Part shown: one piece after another, positions 2,346 to 63,290 of the stretch
How the letters are laid out: the number at the start of each line of letters is the position of its first letter
How positions within the stretch are numbered: the first letter of the stretch is position 1
Assembly (NCBI RefSeq): GCF_016862435.1
Contig: NZ_BOMY01000022.1
Span: 372,001 to 436,000, forward strand
Reading direction: 5' to 3'
Length of the DNA stretch: 64,000 nt
Origin: Paractinoplanes tereljensis
Lineage (GTDB): Bacteria > Actinomycetota > Actinomycetes > Mycobacteriales > Micromonosporaceae
The notes under the pieces: generated by a model
What the model was told of the DNA's origin: nothing
Seen by the model: only the letters and a program-made list of their open reading frames with translations
The model's database searches: none
Position numbers and translations under genes: made by a program

Positions 2346-3395
2346 TCAGCCCACCTTCCGCATCGTGGACATCCGCTTCACATACAAATTCACGAGTACG
2401 GCGAGCAGCAGCATCACGCCGAGGAACGCCTTGAACCAGTTCGGGTCCCAGCCGGCGTAGATGATGCCGAGGCTGGTCATGCCGAAGATGAACGCGCCGA
2501 TCGCGACGCCGATCGAGTTGCCGAAACCGCCGGTCAGCAGGGTGCCGCCGACCACCGCGGCGATGATGTAGAGGAACTCGTTGCCGACGCCGCCGCCGGC
2601 CTGCAGCGTGTTGAACCGGTACAGCTGGTGCATCCCGACGAACCACCCCAGGAACGACACCGTCATGAAGAGCCCGATCTTGGTACGCAGGACGGGCACC
2701 CCGACGGCTCGCGCGCTGTCCGGGTTGCCGCCGACCGCGAAGATCCAGTTACCGACCCGGGTGCGTTGCAGGGCCCAGGTGGCCAGGGCCACGAACAGGA
2801 TCCACCAGATCACCGAGGTCCAGACCGTCACCGAGCCGACCTTGAAGCTCGACGAGAAGACCTTCCCCAGCGAGTCGTAACCGTCGATGTTGCTGACGTC
2901 GAGGCTGGAGACGGTCTTGGTGACCAGCTTGGTGACGCCCAGGTTGGCGCCCTGCAGCACGAAGAACGTGCCCAGCGTGATCAGGAAGCTGGGGATCCCG
3001 GTGCGCATCACCAGATAGCCGTTCAGGAACCCGATCAGCAGGCAGAACGCCAGTGACAGGAACGCGCCGATCCACAGGTTCACCCCGAAGTACCAGCAGA
3101 ACATCGAGTTGAACAGGCCGGCCGTGTAGACGATGACGCCGGCCGACAGGTCGAACTCGCCGCCGATCATCAGCAGGCCGACCCCGCAGGCGACGATGCC
3201 GATCACCGACGACTGGTAGAGCACGGTGAAGAACGACTCGGCCGACCGGAACGACGGCGCGAGCGACAGGAAGAAGATGAAGATGATCACGGCGGCGACC
3301 AGGGCGCCGATCTCGGGCCGGGCCAGCAGGCGGTTGGAGAGTCCCAGTTTGACCCGGCCGGCCGCCGGCGCGGGCGCTTCAATCGTCGAAGTCAT
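2346..3395 (-). CDS. Sugar (inositol) ABC transporter permease, RbsC/FrcC type
   Basis: A 349-aa integral membrane protein with about ten hydrophobic segments, matching the BPD_transp_2 permeases of CUT2 sugar importers. The cytoplasmic loop NPDSARAVGVPVLRTKI (around residue 230) is the ATPase-contact region typical of this family. The first 25 residues are a short Pro/Ala-rich cytoplasmic tail. It lies between the binding-protein gene (4-bp gap) and the ATPase gene (3-bp gap), so all three importer parts are translated together. Confidence 0.92.
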   Translation of the reverse strand: MTSTIEAPAPAAGRVKLGLSNRLLARPEIGALVAAVIIFIFFLSLAPSFRSAESFFTVLYQSSVIGIVACGVGLLMIGGEFDLSAGVIVYTAGLFNSMFCWYFGVNLWIGAFLSLAFCLLIGFLNGYLVMRTGIPSFLITLGTFFVLQGANLGVTKLVTKTVSSLDVSNIDGYDSLGKVFSSSFKVGSVTVWTSVIWWILFVALATWALQRTRVGNWIFAVGGNPDSARAVGVPVLRTKIGLFMTVSFLGWFVGMHQLYRFNTLQAGGGVGNEFLYIIAAVVGGTLLTGGFGNSIGVAIGAFIFGMTSLGIIYAGWDPNWFKAFLGVMLLLAVLVNLYVKRMSTMRKVG

Positions 3396-24653: not shown

Positions 24654-25387
24654 CCGGAGTGCCTGCCTGCGAAGGCGCCGACCGGCCGCTGGTTGAGCGG
24701 CGACTGGCGGGTGTCCTGGACGATCCGGCCGTCGACCAGGCGGACCAGCCGCTTGGCGCGGGCGCCGACCTCGTCCTCGTGCGTGATGATCACGATGGTG
24801 CGGCCGGCCGCGCTGAGGTCGTCGAAGACGTTGAGCACGTCCTCGGTCGAGCGGCTGTCCAGGTTACCGGTGGGCTCGTCGGCGAGCAGCAGAGCCGGCT
24901 CGGTGACCAGTGCCCGGGCTACCGCGACCCGCTGTTGCTGACCACCACTGAGCTGGTTGGGCTCGTGCTTGGCCCGGTCGTCCAGGCCGACCACGCTCAG
25001 CGCGGCCAGGGCCCGGCGGCGCCGCTCGCGCGGCTTCACCCCGGCGTACGCGAGCGGGAGCTCGACGTTCGCCACCGCCGTCGTGCGCGGGATCAGGTTG
25101 AACGACTGGAAGATGAACCCGATGAGCCGGTTCCGGGCCAGGGCCAGCTGCCGGTCGCCCAGCTTGCTGACGTCCACCCCGTCCAGGTGGTAGGTGCCGT
25201 GGGTGGGCACGTCGAGCGCGCCGAGGATGTTCATCAGGGTCGACTTGCCGGAGCCGGACGAACCCATGATCGCCACGTAGTCGCCGCGTTCCACCACCAG
25301 GGACACCCCGGCCAGCGCGTGCACGGTGGCCTCGCCCTCGCCGTAGATCTTCTGGAGGCCGCGGACCTCGATGACCGGCCGGCTCAT
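24650..25387 (-). CDS. MacB-like ABC transporter ATP-binding protein
   Basis: A 245-aa ATPase of the LolD/MacB type: Walker A GSSGSGKST (42-50), signature LSGGQQQRVA, Walker B LLLADEPTGNLD (the GNLD ending is typical of this subfamily), and switch His in IVIITHEDE. It powers the FtsX-like permease encoded next. Both ends overlap neighbours by 4 bp (adaptor upstream, permease downstream), indicating coupled translation. Confidence 0.94.
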   Translation of the reverse strand: MSRPVIEVRGLQKIYGEGEATVHALAGVSLVVERGDYVAIMGSSGSGKSTLMNILGALDVPTHGTYHLDGVDVSKLGDRQLALARNRLIGFIFQSFNLIPRTTAVANVELPLAYAGVKPRERRRRALAALSVVGLDDRAKHEPNQLSGGQQQRVAVARALVTEPALLLADEPTGNLDSRSTEDVLNVFDDLSAAGRTIVIITHEDEVGARAKRLVRLVDGRIVQDTRQSPLNQRPVGAFAGRHSG

Positions 25388-26652
25388 CGCGGGCCCCCAC
25401 CGGTGCCGCCACCGAAGTTGCCGCCGCCGGCCGGGGCACCGCCGCCACCGAAGTTGCCGAACCCGCCACCCTGCTGGTTGGTGGTGGTCGTCGTGGTCGT
25501 CTTCAGCTGGACCTGCTCGCCGGCCTCGACGCCGGAGGTGATCTGGGTGGCCTCGTCCCCCTCCAGGCCGATCTCGACCTGGCGCACCTCGGTGGCACCG
25601 TTGCTGACCACGGTCACCGTGTGCCGGGTGCCGACCGTGGTGAGCGCCGCCGAGTTGACGAAGGTGGCGTTCTCGACGCTGCCGGTGGTGACCGAGACCG
25701 ACACGGTCTGGCCGACCTTGGCGCCGGTCGGCACCTTGTCCAGGGTGAGCGTGACGCCGTAGGTCACCACGCTGTTGCTGGTGGTGCCGGACGGGTCGAT
25801 CGCGGTGACCTTGGCGGTCGCGGTGGTGCCGGACAGCGCGTTCCAGGTGACGTCGGCGACCTGCTTCTCCTTGAGCTTGGTCGCGTCGGCCTCGGCGAAG
25901 TCCGCGCTGACCTGCATCTTGGTCAGGTCGGCGATCTCCGCGAAGCCGGACGACGAGCTCGAGGAACTCGACGAGGAGCTGCTGCCGCCGCCGGCGCTGG
26001 AGCCGCCGCCGCTGCTGCTGCCGGTCGACGAGGAACTGCCGGAGGAGGAGCTTCCGAGCGTGCCGTTGACGGCGGTGATCGTGCCGGCCATCGGGGCCTT
26101 GAGCACGGTGCCGTCCACCCCGGCCTGGGCCGAGTCGACCGCGTCCTCGGCCTGGGCGACCTCGTTCTCGGCACTGGAGGTGTCCGACCCGGCGTCCTCG
26201 GCCCGGGTGAGGGCGTCGTTCGCGGCGTCCAGGTCGGTCTCGGCGGCGTCCAGGGTGCGCTGCGCGTCGGCCGGATCGACCTTCGCGAGCACCTGTCCCT
26301 TCTTCACCACCGAGCCGACTTTCACATTGATCGCGGTGACCGTTCCTCCGGTCTCGAAGCTGGCGGTCGCCGTACTCGCGCTCTCCAGGGTCCCGTCCGC
26401 GGACACGGTCTTGGTGACCGTCCCCTGCTGGACCGAAACCGAGCGAACCGAGGCGTTGGCGGCCGTCGTGGTGTCCGGTCCTTGCAGGGTCTCGTACGCC
26501 CAGAAGGCCCCGGCGACGAGGGCGACTCCGAGGGCGGCGTTGACCGCCACTGTCGGACGTCGCAGGTTAAGGCGCGCTGGCATGCGGGACACTGTGGTGG
26601 GGCGGCCTGGGAGGATCTTCGTCGGAAGCTCGGAGCCAGCTCGGAATCTCAC
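25384..26652 (-). CDS. Membrane fusion (adaptor) protein 1, HlyD/MacA-like
   Basis: A 422-aa periplasmic-adaptor-type protein. An N-terminal membrane helix (VNAALGVALVAGAFWAY) is followed by a lipoyl half (GTVTAINVKVGSVVKKGQ), a short coiled hairpin, the second lipoyl half (APMAGTITAVNG), a Ser/Gly-rich insert of about 35 residues, a beta-barrel domain and a Gly-rich tail. GTG 26652 overlaps the kinase stop by 4 bp, but ATG 26583 (MPARLN) is an alternative start. The first 23 codons contain a direct repeat that could be a regulator site. It should link the permease to extracytoplasmic cargo. Confidence 0.87.
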   Translation of the reverse strand: MRFRAGSELPTKILPGRPTTVSRMPARLNLRRPTVAVNAALGVALVAGAFWAYETLQGPDTTTAANASVRSVSVQQGTVTKTVSADGTLESASTATASFETGGTVTAINVKVGSVVKKGQVLAKVDPADAQRTLDAAETDLDAANDALTRAEDAGSDTSSAENEVAQAEDAVDSAQAGVDGTVLKAPMAGTITAVNGTLGSSSSGSSSSTGSSSGGGSSAGGGSSSSSSSSSSSSGFAEIADLTKMQVSADFAEADATKLKEKQVADVTWNALSGTTATAKVTAIDPSGTTSNSVVTYGVTLTLDKVPTGAKVGQTVSVSVTTGSVENATFVNSAALTTVGTRHTVTVVSNGATEVRQVEIGLEGDEATQITSGVEAGEQVQLKTTTTTTTNQQGGGFGNFGGGGAPAGGGNFGGGTGGGPR

Positions 26653-28259
26653 GGGGTGTCACCGGAAGTCGGTAGCAGGACCCGGAAAGTCGCCCCTCCC
26701 CCGTGCGGTGCATCGAGCTCCACCCACCCTCCGTGACCGTGAACGATCGCCGCGACGATGGACAGCCCGAGCCCCGATCCGCCGCCCCGGCCGCGGGTGC
26801 GGCTGGAGTCGGCCCGGTAGAGCCGTTCGAAGACCCGGGCGGCGTGCAGCGGCGGCACGCCGGGCCCGTCGTCGGTGACCTCGAAGACGGCCAGCGGCAG
26901 CCCGGGACGCACGGTGGCCGGGCCGGACAGCACGGTGGTGGCCCGTGGCGGCCGGGCCGGCAGCCGGCCCACCCGCACGGTGACCTGGGACCGGGCCGGG
27001 GTGTGCTGCAGGGCGTTGGCGACCAGGTTGGTGGCGACCTGGCGCAGGCCGTGCTCGTCGCCGAGCACGGTGGCCGGTTCGAACGTGTCGGCGTCGTCCT
27101 CGAGCCCGGAGAGCCGCACCGGCCGGCTCGGCACCCGGGCGTGCGCGTCCCGGATCGTGTCGGCGGCGATCTCCAGCAGGTCGACCGGGCGCAGCGCGGG
27201 CGGCGGTCGCTGCTGGTCGAGGCGGGCCAGCATGAGCAGGTCCTCGACCAGCACGCCCATCCGGCCGGCCTCGCCCTCGATCCGGCTCATCGTCTCGTCC
27301 AGGGCCGCACCGGGCGGTGCGCCGCCCCGCCTGTACAGCTCGGCGAAGCCGCGGATCGAGGTGAGCGGGGTGCGCAGCTCGTGCGAGGCGTCCGCGACGA
27401 ACTGCCGGAGCCGCTGCTCGCTGGAGGTGCGGGCGTCGACCTCGGCCTCGATCCGGGTGAGCATCGAGTTGAGCGCGAGGCCGAGCCGGCCGGGCTCGGT
27501 GTGCGTGTCGGTGTCGGCGACCCGGCCGGAGAGGTTGCCGGCCGAGATGTCGGTGGCGAGCCGTTCCATGTCGTTGAGCGGGCGCAGCCCGAGCCGCACC
27601 ACGAACCAGGCGCCGCCGGCCAGCAGGGCGAGCACCAGCGCGGAGACGCCGGCGTCGATCAGCATCAGCTGGTCGGTGGTCTGCTGCACCTCGGAGAGGG
27701 AGACCCCGATGACCGCGTAGCCGCCGGTCGAGGTGTCCGGCACGGCGATCACCCGCCAGTCGTTGTCCGGCCCGCTCATCGTGAACGGTTTGCCGGCCGC
27801 GGCCCGGGTCTTGATCTCGGCGAAGGTCTCGGCGGACAGGTCGGCCTTGTCGGCGTTGTAGCTGCGGTCGGGGTTCAGCGAGCCGTCCGGGTTGTAGGAG
27901 TACGTCAGCTGTTCGGGCCCGAGGCGCTGGAACCGGCCCCGCGGGATGGCGCTGAAGGTGGAGATGCGGTCCTCGGCGAACGGCCGGGCCATCCCGCTCA
28001 GCTGGTCGTCGATCCGGCTGAGCAGGTAGCCGCGAATCAGCACCAGGCCGGTGATGTTCGCGATGAGCAGGGCGACCGCGGCGAGCGCGCCCACGACCAG
28101 AACCAGTCGCGAGCGCAGCGTCCAATGGCCCCACCGCCGCGGTCGCCAGCGGAGCCGGGTGGTCAATGAACCTTTTTCAAGCTGGCCTAGGGCCAGCGGT
28201 TCCGGCGCCGTTGATCGGCGCCGGGCGCTGCCGCCCCGGCCATCTTGAAAAAAGTTCAC
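26649..28259 (-). CDS. Sensor histidine kinase (OmpR/EnvZ class)
   Basis: A 536-aa kinase. TM1 is near 50-75 and TM2 near 205-225, flanking an external sensor of about 125 residues. HAMP follows (RPLNDMERLATDISAGNL), then HisKA with the phosphorylated His in ADASHELRTPL, and HATPase_c with NLVANALQHTP, DDGPGVPP and GGSGLGLSIV. It is coupled to the response-regulator gene by GTGA overlap. The first ~30 codons are encoded inside a large imperfect palindrome (28167-28258) and look unrelated to kinase sequence. TTG 28170 or another internal start may be used. Confidence 0.9.
   Translation of the reverse strand: MNFFQDGRGGSARRRSTAPEPLALGQLEKGSLTTRLRWRPRRWGHWTLRSRLVLVVGALAAVALLIANITGLVLIRGYLLSRIDDQLSGMARPFAEDRISTFSAIPRGRFQRLGPEQLTYSYNPDGSLNPDRSYNADKADLSAETFAEIKTRAAAGKPFTMSGPDNDWRVIAVPDTSTGGYAVIGVSLSEVQQTTDQLMLIDAGVSALVLALLAGGAWFVVRLGLRPLNDMERLATDISAGNLSGRVADTDTHTEPGRLGLALNSMLTRIEAEVDARTSSEQRLRQFVADASHELRTPLTSIRGFAELYRRGGAPPGAALDETMSRIEGEAGRMGVLVEDLLMLARLDQQRPPPALRPVDLLEIAADTIRDAHARVPSRPVRLSGLEDDADTFEPATVLGDEHGLRQVATNLVANALQHTPARSQVTVRVGRLPARPPRATTVLSGPATVRPGLPLAVFEVTDDGPGVPPLHAARVFERLYRADSSRTRGRGGGSGLGLSIVAAIVHGHGGWVELDAPHGGGATFRVLLPTSGDTP
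28167..28258. repeat. 92-bp imperfect palindrome at the start of the kinase gene
   Basis: Outer 21-bp arms at 28167-28187 and 28238-28258 are inverted copies with two mismatches (19/21), each with a run of A or T next to TTCAAG/CTTGAA. Inside, CCGGCGCCG and CGGCGCCGG form a second perfect stem with a 5-nt loop, flanked by CAGCG/CGCTG, and GCTGGCC-TAG-GGCCAGC gives a third at one arm. The element starts one base from the kinase GTG codon. It may be a small inserted MITE-like element or a translational control hairpin. Confidence 0.6.
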
Positions 28260-29011
28260 TCCTCCCCACCGCGTGGCAGCCGCAGCGCGTAGCCGACACC
28301 GCGGACGGTGTGGATCAGCGGCGGGTCGGTCTTGTCGATCTTGCGGCGCAGGTAGTACACGTAGGACTCGACGATGCGGCCGTCGCCGCCGAAGTCGTAC
28401 TTCCAGACCCGGTCCAGGATCTGCGCCTTGCTGACCACCCGGCCCGCGTTGATCATCAGGTAGCGCAGCAGGTTGAACTCGGTCGGCGACAGGTCGATCA
28501 GGCGGCCGGCCCGGCGCACCTCGTGCGCGTCCTCGTCGAGCTCGAGATCGGCGTACCGCAGCACGCCGGCGTCGGCGCCCGGCGCGTCCAGCTCGGGCTG
28601 GCTGCGCCGCAGGATCGCCCGGATCCGCAGCACGACCTCCTCCAGGCTGAACGGCTTGGTGACGTAGTCGTCGGCGCCGGCCGAGAGACCGGAGATCCGG
28701 TCCTCGACCGCGTCCCGGGCGGTCAGGAACAGCACCGGGACCCGGCTGCCGTTGGCCCGCAGCCGCTTGGCGACGTCGAAGCCGTCCAGGTCGGGCAGCA
28801 TCACGTCGAGCACGACCAGGTCGGGCTCGAACTCCTCGATCGCGACCAGGGCCCGGTGGCCGGTGTCGACCACCCGCACCTCGAACTCGACCAGCCGGAG
28901 CGTGGCGCTGAGCAGGGCGGAAATGTTGGGCTCGTCGTCGACCACGAGGACCCGGGCGGCCCGCGCCGGGGGCTCGCGCAATGCGACAGAGGTATGCGAA
29001 TCAGTTAGCAC
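28256..29011 (-). CDS. OmpR-family response regulator
   Basis: A 251-aa regulator. The receiver domain (about 20-135) has acidic pair VVDDEPN, phospho-acceptor Asp in LVVLDVMLPDLDG and Lys in VTKPFS. The winged-helix DNA-binding domain (about 155-250) ends RRKIDKTDPPLIHTVRGVGY. GTG 29011 gives full length; no strong ribosome site is visible. It pairs with the downstream kinase and probably controls this export operon. OmpR-type proteins bind tandem direct repeats, and candidates exist at 30421-30453 and 26630-26651. Confidence 0.93.
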   Translation of the reverse strand: MLTDSHTSVALREPPARAARVLVVDDEPNISALLSATLRLVEFEVRVVDTGHRALVAIEEFEPDLVVLDVMLPDLDGFDVAKRLRANGSRVPVLFLTARDAVEDRISGLSAGADDYVTKPFSLEEVVLRIRAILRRSQPELDAPGADAGVLRYADLELDEDAHEVRRAGRLIDLSPTEFNLLRYLMINAGRVVSKAQILDRVWKYDFGGDGRIVESYVYYLRRKIDKTDPPLIHTVRGVGYALRLPRGGEE

Positions 29012-29080: not shown

Positions 29081-30385
29081 TCACCAAGATCGGGTGACCT
29101 GATCACCTTCGGTGAGACCGCTGGTGATCTCGGTGTACTGGTCGCCGCGCAGCCCCACCCCGACCGACACCTGGCTGCCGCCCTTGAGCACGGTGCCGGT
29201 GTCGCCCTTGACGTTGTGCACCGCGGTGCTGGGCACCCGGAGCACGCCGGTCTTCGAGCCGGTGGTGATCTTCACCGACGCGCTCTGGCCGACCAGCAGC
29301 TCGGTAGGGGCCTCGTCGAAGGAGAGCACGGTACCGAAGGTGACCATGGTGCCGTCGCTGGTGCCGGTCGGGTCGACCTGCACGACGGTCGCCTTGAACT
29401 CCTTGCCCACCCGGTCGGCCAGGGTGACCACGGCCTTCTGCTTGACCGCCAGCCGGTCCGCGTCGGCCTCCGGGAAGGACGCGCTGATCTGCATGTCGTA
29501 GACGTCGGCCAGGGTGATGAAGGTCGATCCGGAGCTGACGCTGCTGCCTACCTTGCCGCTGACGCTGATGATCCGGCCGGCGATCGGGGCGGTGATGGTC
29601 GCGCCGGCCAGGGCCTCCTCGGCCTCCTCGAGCGAGGTGGTGGCCGAGGTGACCCGCTGCTGGGCGCTGAGGATCGCGTCGCCGCTGCTGCTCTGGCCGC
29701 CGCCCTGCTGACCGCTGCCGCTGCCGCTGCTGCCACTGCTGCCACTGGTCGAGCAGCTGCCAGAGCCCGAACCGGTGCCGGCGCCGCTGCCGCGGGTCGC
29801 GGTGGCGGTCGGCTTGGCAGTGGCGGTCTTCGTGGCGGTGGCCGTGGCCGTGGCGGTCGCCGTCGGCGACGACGTGGCGGTCGCGGTCGGCGAAGCGGTC
29901 GCGGTCGGTGAAGCGGTCGGCGTCGGCGAGGCGGTGGGAGAGGTGTACGCGGCCGCCACGTTGCATCCGGAGGAGGACGTCGTGGTCGACGTCTTCGAGG
30001 CATTCGCCTTGGCCTCGGTCAGCGTGTCCTCGGCGTCGTCGAGGGACTCCTGCGCGTCGTCCACGGCGGTGGCCGCGTCGGTGTCGTCGACCTTCGCGAG
30101 CACCTGCCCGGCGGTGACCGTGTTACCGGCCCGCACCGACACGCTCTCCACCGTGCCCTGCACCGCGAAGGAGAGGCTGCGCGTCTGCGCCGGCTGCAAC
30201 GTGCCGGTGGTGGCCACCTCGGTGGTCACGTCGCCGAGGTCGGCCGCCGAGGTGGCCGCCGCCTTCGGCTTCTCCGCGGCGTCCGCGGTCAACGCGTGCA
30301 CCACTCCGTACGCGATCAGCGCGAGCACGACGACAGCCGCAGCGATCCAGATCCAGCGCCGTCGACCGGCCAGTACTTCACCCAT
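29081..30385 (-). CDS. Membrane fusion (adaptor) protein 2, HlyD/RND-type
   Basis: About 434 aa from ATG 30385; the frame is open to a GTG at 30466 (461 aa). A membrane helix (WIWIAAAVVVLALIAYGVV) is followed by the first lipoyl half (GTVESVSVRAGNTVTAGQ), a hairpin interrupted by a long Thr/Ala/Ser/Pro repeat tract with two Cys, the second lipoyl half (ATITAPIAGRIISVSG), and beta-barrel domains. I prefer 30385 because the longer start places coding sequence over tandem regulatory-looking repeats. It is the first gene of the efflux operon, 69 bp before the response regulator, and gives the cluster two adaptors for one exporter. Confidence 0.82.
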   Translation of the reverse strand: MGEVLAGRRRWIWIAAAVVVLALIAYGVVHALTADAAEKPKAAATSAADLGDVTTEVATTGTLQPAQTRSLSFAVQGTVESVSVRAGNTVTAGQVLAKVDDTDAATAVDDAQESLDDAEDTLTEAKANASKTSTTTSSSGCNVAAAYTSPTASPTPTASPTATASPTATATSSPTATATATATATKTATAKPTATATRGSGAGTGSGSGSCSTSGSSGSSGSGSGQQGGGQSSSGDAILSAQQRVTSATTSLEEAEEALAGATITAPIAGRIISVSGKVGSSVSSGSTFITLADVYDMQISASFPEADADRLAVKQKAVVTLADRVGKEFKATVVQVDPTGTSDGTMVTFGTVLSFDEAPTELLVGQSASVKITTGSKTGVLRVPSTAVHNVKGDTGTVLKGGSQVSVGVGLRGDQYTEITSGLTEGDQVTRSW

Positions 30386-30420
30386 GGCGGGGAAGTGTTC
30401 CGGGTTGTCCTCGCCGGATG

Positions 30421-30453
30421 CTCGGTTCTGGCTCGGAGTTGGCTCGGAGCCAA
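30421..30453. promoter_or_regulatory. Three tandem 11-bp repeats, candidate response-regulator site
   Basis: CTCGG begins each of three consecutive 11-bp units at 30421, 30432 and 30443; the second and third share CTCGGAG. An 11-bp period places each unit on the same DNA face, as at OmpR-family sites. The region lies between the divergent adaptor-2 and lipoprotein genes. TTGGCTC-G-GAGCCAA (30439-30453) also forms an inverted repeat over the last units. Confidence 0.45.
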
Positions 30454-30573
30454 AGATCTTGAGCACAGCCCCGGCACAGGGTCTCCAAGCGAACTATGAG
30501 GATCTCCCGACGTTGCGTGCAGGTTGCCGGGCTTGGGTGGGGCCGACATCCCTGGCCGGAGAAATGAGGCATA

Positions 30574-62676: not shown

Positions 62677-63255
62677 AGGCGCCCAGGAGCCGGCTCACCA
62701 CTGCCGTAGAGGTCGCTCACCAGGCGGGTCATCGCAGTCGTGGCGGGCGCCTTGCCGCTGGGCCAGCATCGTTCGAAGCACATCGCGGCCGCCGGACGCG
62801 GCTTAACCGGTGAGCACGCGAGAGCGACGGCACCAGGCGGTGATTGCCGAGGCTCCAGCACCACTTCCCGCAGATCCTGGCGATTTGACACCCCGCTGGT
62901 TGCTCCAGCTCGACAAGTTCGCCGCAGGCTCCATCGCGCCTGGGGTGATATGAACGGCATGTCGGGTTTCTGCTCCCACGGCGTGGGAGGGCTTCCCACC
63001 GAGCAGGACAGCCGCCACGATGCGGACGCCCAGCTCAGGTTTCGGGAGCGACTGCCACTATGCGGGACGTCGGACGCACCAGCACCGGAAATGGCGCGGC
63101 GGCGACGCCGGGCGGGCCAGCGTCAGCCGGCGAGAAGCGCGATGACGTCGGCGGGGGCCGGCGTCAACCGCGAGGAGCCCGGTGACATCGGCCGGGGCCG
63201 GCGCCAGGCCGGCGCCAGCCGCGAGGAGGCCGGTGAGGTCGGGCGACGGCCGGCG
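62677..63255. other. 579-bp gene-poor stretch with tandem repeats
   Basis: No convincing gene lies between the BenE-like gene and the MazG-like gene. Long frames cross it on both strands but show no ribosome site and atypical composition (62740-63543 on plus, 62223-62999 on minus). CTCCCACG-G-CGTGGGAG (about 62972-62988) is a perfect inverted repeat. The right third holds three copies of the 41-bp repeat listed separately. Confidence 0.5.
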
Positions 63256-63290
63256 TCAGCTGGTGAAGAGGGCGGTTACGTCGGGTGGGC
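63115..63290. repeat. Four imperfect ~41-bp tandem repeats derived from the MazG gene 3' end
   Basis: Units begin GGCC(A/G)GCG(T/C)CA at 63115, 63156, 63207 and 63248, with spacings of 41, 51 and 41 bp. The 51-bp spacing is explained by an 11-bp duplication (GGCCGGCGCCA at 63196 and 63207). Each unit includes a GA(C/G)(G/A)TCGG-like end. The last unit encodes the final residues and stop of the MazG-like protein, so the others look like degenerate duplications of that 3' end. Confidence 0.65.

Follow-up and report, generated by a model that had tools for sequence, protein, structure and literature searches.

A palindrome at the regulator–kinase junction

The stretch of Paractinoplanes tereljensis DNA analysed here (the window, 64,000 nt in length) carries on its reverse strand an OmpR-type response regulator gene followed by a histidine kinase gene (Table 1). 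The pair is flanked on both sides by HlyD/RND-type efflux adaptor-like genes (25384–26652 and 29081–30466), which were recognised by eye from their translations and both contain long low-complexity stretches. Tandem repeats of 18–24 bp at 29799–29935 fall in an Ala/Thr-rich stretch of the adaptor-like gene at 29081–30466, and the two top-scoring tandem repeat rows of the window, with units of 40 and 51 bp, are found at 63114–63259.

The beginning of the kinase reading frame, as mechanically called, coincides with a 92-bp palindrome. Its arms, of 21 nt each, are complementary at 19 of 21 positions (90%), lie 50 nt apart and enclose a perfect 9-bp stem (28202–28210/28216–28224). In 60 dinucleotide shuffles of the segment 27900–28500, the best 21-nt inverted repeat reached 17/21. 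The fold of 28150–28275 had a predicted energy of −70.9 kcal/mol (z = −5.5), and none of 200 shuffles was as good. The palindrome with 21-bp arms reported at 28167–28258 in a first-pass annotation of this DNA is thus real. That annotation also set it one base away from the GTG start of the kinase; the GTG start as called is present, but the palindrome includes two bases of this codon (28259–28257) and its outermost three bases are the TGA of the regulator. Rfam gave three matches, all of them below the gathering score. Matched substitutions distinguish the two arms of the window copy, with CAAG/CTTG in place of CAAC/GTTG; a 49-bp internally deleted copy found in another genome (L163 in G032, positions 1004–1052) has the same arm variant.

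Table 1. Features of the response regulator–histidine kinase junction in the window.
Feature	Position	Strand	Remarks
Histidine kinase ORF as mechanically called (HAMP, HisKA, HATPase_c)	26649–28259	-	Likely true extent 26649–28166
OmpR-type response regulator (Response_reg, Trans_reg_C)	28256–29011	-	ORF and domain search
GTG overlapping the regulator stop (GTGA)	28257–28259	-	Ancestral start position; now begins a 31-codon read-through extension
TTG, regenerated, probable histidine kinase start	28164–28166	-	Alignment with L007; analogy with ackA
Palindromic element, putatively mobile, 92 bp	28167–28258	-	In transcription order, B arm first and A arm second
Net inserted unit, 93 bp (92-bp element plus one base, 31 codons)	28166–28258	.	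Compared with junctions lacking the element
B arm	28238–28258	-	Outer TGA (28258–28256) is the response regulator stop codon
A arm	28167–28187	-	Transcribed-strand end AAAAAGGTTCA, directly before the regenerated TTG
Weak Shine-Dalgarno-like AAAGG, in the A arm	28175–28171	-	Before the regenerated TTG
Inner perfect 9-bp stem with 5-nt loop	28202–28224	.	Element region that drifts between copies

The junction in related genomes

The kinase was sought in 60 genomes, and the best 29 loci outside the window's own genome were examined. The arms of the element, looked for from −60 to +220 relative to the regulator stop, were present in none of these 29 regulator–kinase loci. In 19 of them, the kinase frame starts inside the regulator stop (NTGA; GTGA in 12, ATGA in five and TTGA in two), while the remaining 10 have a regulator stop of another form or an offset kinase frame. 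In the window (L005), 128 nt separate the regulator stop from the kinase motif HWTLRSRL, as against 35 nt in one of the relatives (L007, genome G004), so that the two differ by 93 nt, or 31 codons. The sequences that follow are collinear: GTG ACC TCC CGG CTC CGC TGG in L007, and TTG ACC ACC CGG CTC CGC TGG in the window, where this segment comes directly after the element.

These comparisons bear on the possibility that the palindrome is native kinase coding sequence, palindromic by chance. The reading frame is indeed open from the GTG, but the sequence is missing from all 29 relatives' loci, and related sequence occurs at dozens of other loci in relatives. This reading was rejected on the junction comparisons and hardly deserves credence. 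As judged from the aligned junctions, the palindrome is an insertion between regulator and kinase. The first-pass annotation had proposed a MITE-like insertion at this point, kept in frame, and the empty sites together with a family dispersed in relatives (see below) support it. Kinase N-termini sharing the palindrome-encoded residues, which that annotation saw as the sign of ordinary coding sequence, did not occur at any of the relatives' loci; the palindrome codons are absent from 29 of 29. That the first ∼30 codons of the called kinase derive from the insertion is also borne out, but the implied N-terminal gain by the kinase protein is less well supported, given the regenerated TTG and the decayed copies upstream of ackA described below.

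Copies and distribution of the element family

A search of the rest of the genome for further copies, likewise proposed at first pass, did not yield any of full length: the window's genome contains a single full-length copy and so offers no sign of recent mobility in this lineage. C13 holds one further 15-mer with one mismatch, and a short match in C32 covers inner G+C-rich sequence only. A similar match in C55, also limited to inner G+C-rich sequence, falls in what looks like Ala/Gly-rich coding sequence and was taken as chance.

Among 67 genomes of the genus, in turn, a DNA search revealed many full-length relatives; the best among the matches listed, in G004, was 91% identical. In the Actinoplanes group, some relatives hold as many as roughly two dozen copies; Mangrovihabitans endophyticus and Paractinoplanes durhamensis are among the copy-rich genomes. 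The pattern of the element ends (allowing one mismatch at most) was present in 27 of the 67 genus genomes. A longer pattern for the arms was shared by 36 of 354 genomes of the family, G008 being the richest (47 arm matches). When the exact arm pattern was sought in one genome for each of 84,980 species, 61 stretches were found, 54 of them in Actinoplanes-group records (Actinoplanes, Paractinoplanes, Mangrovihabitans, Pseudosporangium and Nucisporomicrobium). The other seven were single matches in other taxa, none of them in a mycobacterial record. Plasmids gave no match to the element, and the one single-arm match in viral contigs was read and judged to be due to chance. No prior description of this element was recognised among the first titles listed in searches of mainly open-access literature.

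For a closer inspection of the copies, 101 loci (100 plus L001) were picked among the matches listed, a sample rather than the whole set of copies. Fourteen lacked a two-ended copy (in one of them, L135, an intact copy lies too close to the limit of the retrieved segment) and two loci contained a pair of copies, resulting in 89 two-ended copies; these include the orthologous sets L093/L115/L160, L131/L167, L155/L164 and L096/L156. Exactly 92 bp were measured for 52 of the 89, and the arms were conserved. The A arm (TGAACCTTTTTCAACCTGGC) can consistently be told from the B arm (TGAACTTTTTTCAACGTGGC), which gives the element an orientation. Sequence similarity and distribution thus indicate that the palindrome is a member of a family, mostly of 92 bp, dispersed through Actinoplanes-group genomes. 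An arm variant ending in TGAGC was detected in G068, G086, G118, G120 and G121, and another genus of the family (g32) has it as well, which suggests a subfamily. At L154 (G008), near position 3001, CTGGTCCCCGCGAGGG-like units recur after one element-like end, in the place of the second arm.

Target site and mode of insertion

The copies end in TGAAC...GTTCA and are flanked by CAN before and NTG after the element, which defines the target as CANTG. Four relatives were compared with the 10 two-ended copies of G004; for seven copies, one or more of the relatives had an empty site covering the junction, and six of these aligned there without gaps. The net insertion in these comparisons was the element plus one base (93 bases). 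Over the 89 copies, the terminal bases were more conserved than the corresponding flanking ones (A, 87 versus 70, p = 9 × 10⁻⁵; T, 85 versus 69, p = 7 × 10⁻⁴), so that the terminal A and T can be assigned to the element and no ordinary target duplication is seen. The single base on each side was identical in 51 of the 89 copies; shuffling gave an expectation of 27, and 0 of 5000 shuffles were as high. Inspection by eye of the empty sites showed that the window, L080, L081 and L082 have kept the ancestral base next to the B arm and have an A next to the A arm; L076 was ambiguous, and in L078 and L085 the base on neither side matches the nearest empty sites.

A conceivable mover would be a putative site-specific recombinase, as opposed to a DDE transposase that duplicates its target; it would act through a circle whose joined ends (TTCA N TGAA) look like the insertion site. 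A duplication of one base at most, the better conservation of the terminal A and T, the fact that the two flanking bases agree in just 51 of 89 copies, and the four informative cases that keep the ancestral base beside the B arm are in keeping with it. Against this, 51 agreements exceed the 27 expected, as a one-base duplication would also give; L076 is ambiguous, and L078 and L085 do not fit on either side. In addition, no circle-junction sequence was present in the 67 genomes (up to two mismatches allowed), and no transposase or recombinase tied to the copies was found in the loci and genomes searched. Arm pairs 140–5000 bp apart, sought in loci L075–L235 as a sign of a longer autonomous element, only join short copies that are already paired. 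All in all, movement by a recombinase through a circle seems rather unlikely, though plausible.

Placement at gene stops and starts

In bacterial operons, the stop codon of one gene often shares bases with the start codon of the next, and an element landing there would be expected to ruin one or both. The TGA of the element provided an in-frame stop at 27 of 40 incoming gene ends, as compared with one of 23 control CANTGA sites (p = 7 × 10⁻⁷). On the far side of these 27 in-phase stops the old TGA was found in 16 cases, a TAG in two and neither in nine. On the outgoing side, 66 flanks had one clear frame, and in 19 of these an ATG, GTG or TTG in frame occupied the first base after the element (control CANTG sites, 19 of 163; p = 0.003); frame 0 as such was not clearly enriched among these flanks (29 of 66 versus 61 of 182 controls, p = 0.14). 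Copies at gene starts were preferentially in the A>B orientation (16 of 19, p = 0.004; 15 of 18 when one orthologous copy was omitted, p = 0.008) and were more often of 92 bp than the other copies (16 of 19 versus 36 of 70, p = 0.017). In total, the element borders fall exactly on a gene stop or start in 37 of the 89 copies; the rest lie elsewhere or could not be decided, coding having been judged by GC3 alone. A cruder ORF calling placed 10 of 89 copies at a natural stop (control sites, 0 of 213) and 38 of 89 inside ORFs; this last count comes from ORFs over-extended from stop to stop, and the phase tests were used instead.

Eight of the 66 outgoing flanks, and none of the 163 control sites, corresponded to stop/start junctions split by the element (p = 3 × 10⁻⁵). 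Three of the eight involve two-component pairs: response regulator/histidine kinase in the window, regulator/kinase in L113, and kinase/regulator in L081. The other five separate two ABC permease genes (L111), recO and uppS (L129), a DeoR regulator and a galT-like gene (L133), pta and ackA (L168), and a gene of no family and an NmrA-like gene (L167).

The pta–ackA junction and the start codon of the kinase

AckA was found in 66 of the 67 genomes, and 30 loci were compared. The pta and ackA genes overlap by ATGA in 27 of these. The junction contains an intact element in L279 and decayed ones in L283 and L285, with spacers of 91 and 151 nt, respectively; the latter copy, in genome G007, owes its longer spacer to an internal tandem duplication. 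The start of AckA (VTRVLVLN or MTRVLVLN, as in relatives) comes directly after the element, or two bases further on in L283. Reading from the upstream start codon would not lead into the AckA frame in L283 or L285, and translation of AckA at these two loci must therefore rely on the regenerated start. Their Shine-Dalgarno matches (−12.1 and −7.0 kcal/mol) were stronger than that of the intact copy (−2.2 kcal/mol), a difference that is suggestive with n = 2. Another locus, L309 (G005), has a 78-nt pta–ackA spacer that partly matches the element but has no clear arms, and could be a relic or a coincidence.

By analogy with the regenerated start of ackA, the kinase of the window probably begins mainly at the regenerated TTG (28166–28164), 31 codons downstream of the GTG at 28259. 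The old GTG has the better Shine-Dalgarno match (−11.9 versus −5.3 kcal/mol for the TTG), which would favour read-through; the element contains no stop in that frame to prevent it. The insertion might therefore act at the protein level, the kinase being translated from the old GTG with 31 element-derived codons as an N-terminal extension that includes NFFQDGRGGSARR, in the manner of a Rickettsia palindromic element. Apart from the stronger Shine-Dalgarno match, what speaks for such an extension is that, of the 52 copies of 92 bp, 51 have no stop in the frame of the boundary NTG when read in the A>B direction and 45 when read as B>A, that frame-0 stops in the middle number six against a mean of 21 in mononucleotide shuffles, and that 92-bp copies are commoner at gene starts. 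It is mainly stops in the conserved arms, however, that close the other frames, and when only the middle is considered frame-0 stops are fewer just for A>B (two versus 10 and eight, p = 0.03); in the direction of the window copy, B>A, there are four versus six and four (p = 0.78). Conservation does not follow codon position (entropies of 0.95, 1.05 and 1.02), and the two decayed pta–ackA copies, of 91 and 151 nt, are out of frame and have kept the canonical AckA start. A protein-level role is accordingly considered the less likely outcome for this kinase, for which the regenerated TTG remains the preferred start.

The hairpin and conservation of the arms

The sequence AAAAAGG beside the TTG had a predicted unpaired probability of 0.00 in the folded transcript, and of 0.71 when the footprint of a ribosome at the regulator stop was blocked from pairing. 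Under this model, the kinase start may be concealed by the hairpin as long as no ribosome occupies the regulator stop. Whether the hairpin would go on to preserve translational coupling, masking the TTG region until the ribosome that finishes the regulator melts the 5′ arm, is on these predictions an even bet. In the alignment of the hairpins, base pairing is consistent over the outer ∼20 positions, the exceptions being 6/87 and 16/77 and, to a lesser degree, 7/86 and 19/74. The pairs with top mutual information in the middle are mostly poorly paired, and no selected RNA fold is therefore claimed for that part.

In four pairs of orthologous copies, the arms were identical at 158 of 160 positions and the middle at 167 of 211 (p = 6 × 10⁻¹⁰). 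These are four of seven pairs; the count left out two that involve L115 and a neighbouring pair within L148. The orthologous copy in L115 has two differences in the B arm (identity 0.90). Constraint in place, or repair, would explain the constancy of the arms. It could be, in line with the other alternative of the first-pass annotation, that the hairpin is kept for a regulatory task, setting the kinase:regulator ratio or stabilising or terminating the mRNA, and is not just tolerated selfish DNA: it is strong, its arms stay nearly identical while the middle drifts, and copies at gene starts are biased in orientation (16 of 19 A>B). The window copy, however, lies in the rarer B>A orientation, all 29 relatives' loci do without the element at this operon, L115 has accumulated its two B-arm differences, and arm conservation could equally reflect repair or mobility. 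Retention of the hairpin for a regulatory function thus appears doubtful.

Similarity to known elements

The closest described case is that of the mycobacterial MIRUs. In PMC12548453, MIRUs (Supply et al. 1997, as cited there) are presented as apparently mobile short repeats that insert at start codons, their ORF coupled to the gene at the insertion site with a −4 nt spacing, and a cited title places them in the operon of a two-component system. Insertion at start codons with a stop/start (−4 nt) overlap is the feature common to the MIRUs so described and the eight junctions found here. A similar coupling of an internal ORF to the neighbouring gene would be conceivable here, the boundary frame being free of stops in 51 (A>B) and 45 (B>A) of the 52 copies of 92 bp, although the two decayed copies are out of frame. 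Unlike the MIRUs, the element reported here is a 92-bp palindrome with inverted arms of ∼20 bp. Its arm pattern occurred in no mycobacterial record, and the comparison with MIRUs was made from their description. MIRUs form tandem arrays; in the present family, one decayed copy has an internal duplication. By analogy, the element may be said to be similar to MIRUs in its targeting, though not necessarily by descent.

Like the Rickettsia palindromic elements, which PMC10969869 describes as being of ∼150 bp and, in nearly half of the cases, inserted in genomic ORFs, the family is palindromic, and its open reading frame might fuse in frame with host genes. In comparison with that description, the exact placement at stops and starts (gene ends in 37 of 89 copies) and the regenerated start codon stand out. 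MITEs are also similar, in that the copies are short and dispersed, have terminal inverted repeats with defined ends and empty sites, and leave no room for a transposase gene. The present family differs from them in that there is no conventional target duplication (one base, equal in 51 of 89 copies) and that no parent transposon with the same ends was found in loci L075–L235. REP sequences and REPINs are likewise dispersed hairpins of similar size with conserved ends, the size of a REPIN being about that of the 92-bp element. The ends of the element show neither GTAG nor CGTC, the tags named in the title of PMC3733652. No match to Y1_Tnp was detected in the copy-rich genomes G004, G008, G015, G068 and G070; G087 had two matches and G012 one, which was partial. 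A REPIN/RAYT origin was set aside, the expected Y1 transposase being absent from the five copy-rich genomes.

Discussion

Taken as a whole, the sequence comparisons indicate that the palindrome is very probably a copy of a small non-autonomous mobile family that inserted at a CANTG site, splitting the GTGA overlap of a response regulator and a histidine kinase and sparing both genes. The element would insert at CANTG-like sites, its ends carrying a TGA and an NTG being left behind; at an NTGA stop, or at a stop/start overlap, the upstream gene would keep its stop and the downstream gene its start. In the window, insertion into the GTGA overlap would have left the regulator with its stop at the TGA 28258–28256, and the kinase most likely with the regenerated TTG (28166) as its start. 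The 5′ arm might then be melted by ribosomes completing the regulator, which would expose the TTG region and keep the kinase dependent on translation of the regulator.

A bolder proposal, which the evidence makes improbable though worth stating, is that the family is a second, independently evolved MIRU-like lineage: a palindrome moved by a putative recombinase that exchanges a single base without target duplication, whose ends would form a portable cassette of stop codon, hairpin and start codon. Such a cassette would split ATGA or GTGA overlaps and restore coupling through a hairpin opened by the ribosome, after which selection would hold the arms.

The element family shows insertion exactly at stop/start overlaps with both codons restored, at eight junctions that include pta–ackA and recO–uppS. 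This gene-sparing insertion mirrors the description of mycobacterial MIRUs in PMC12548453. The occurrence of the same junction with and without the element in close relatives provides a natural test of the effects of such overlaps on translational coupling and on the protein ratios of two-component systems.
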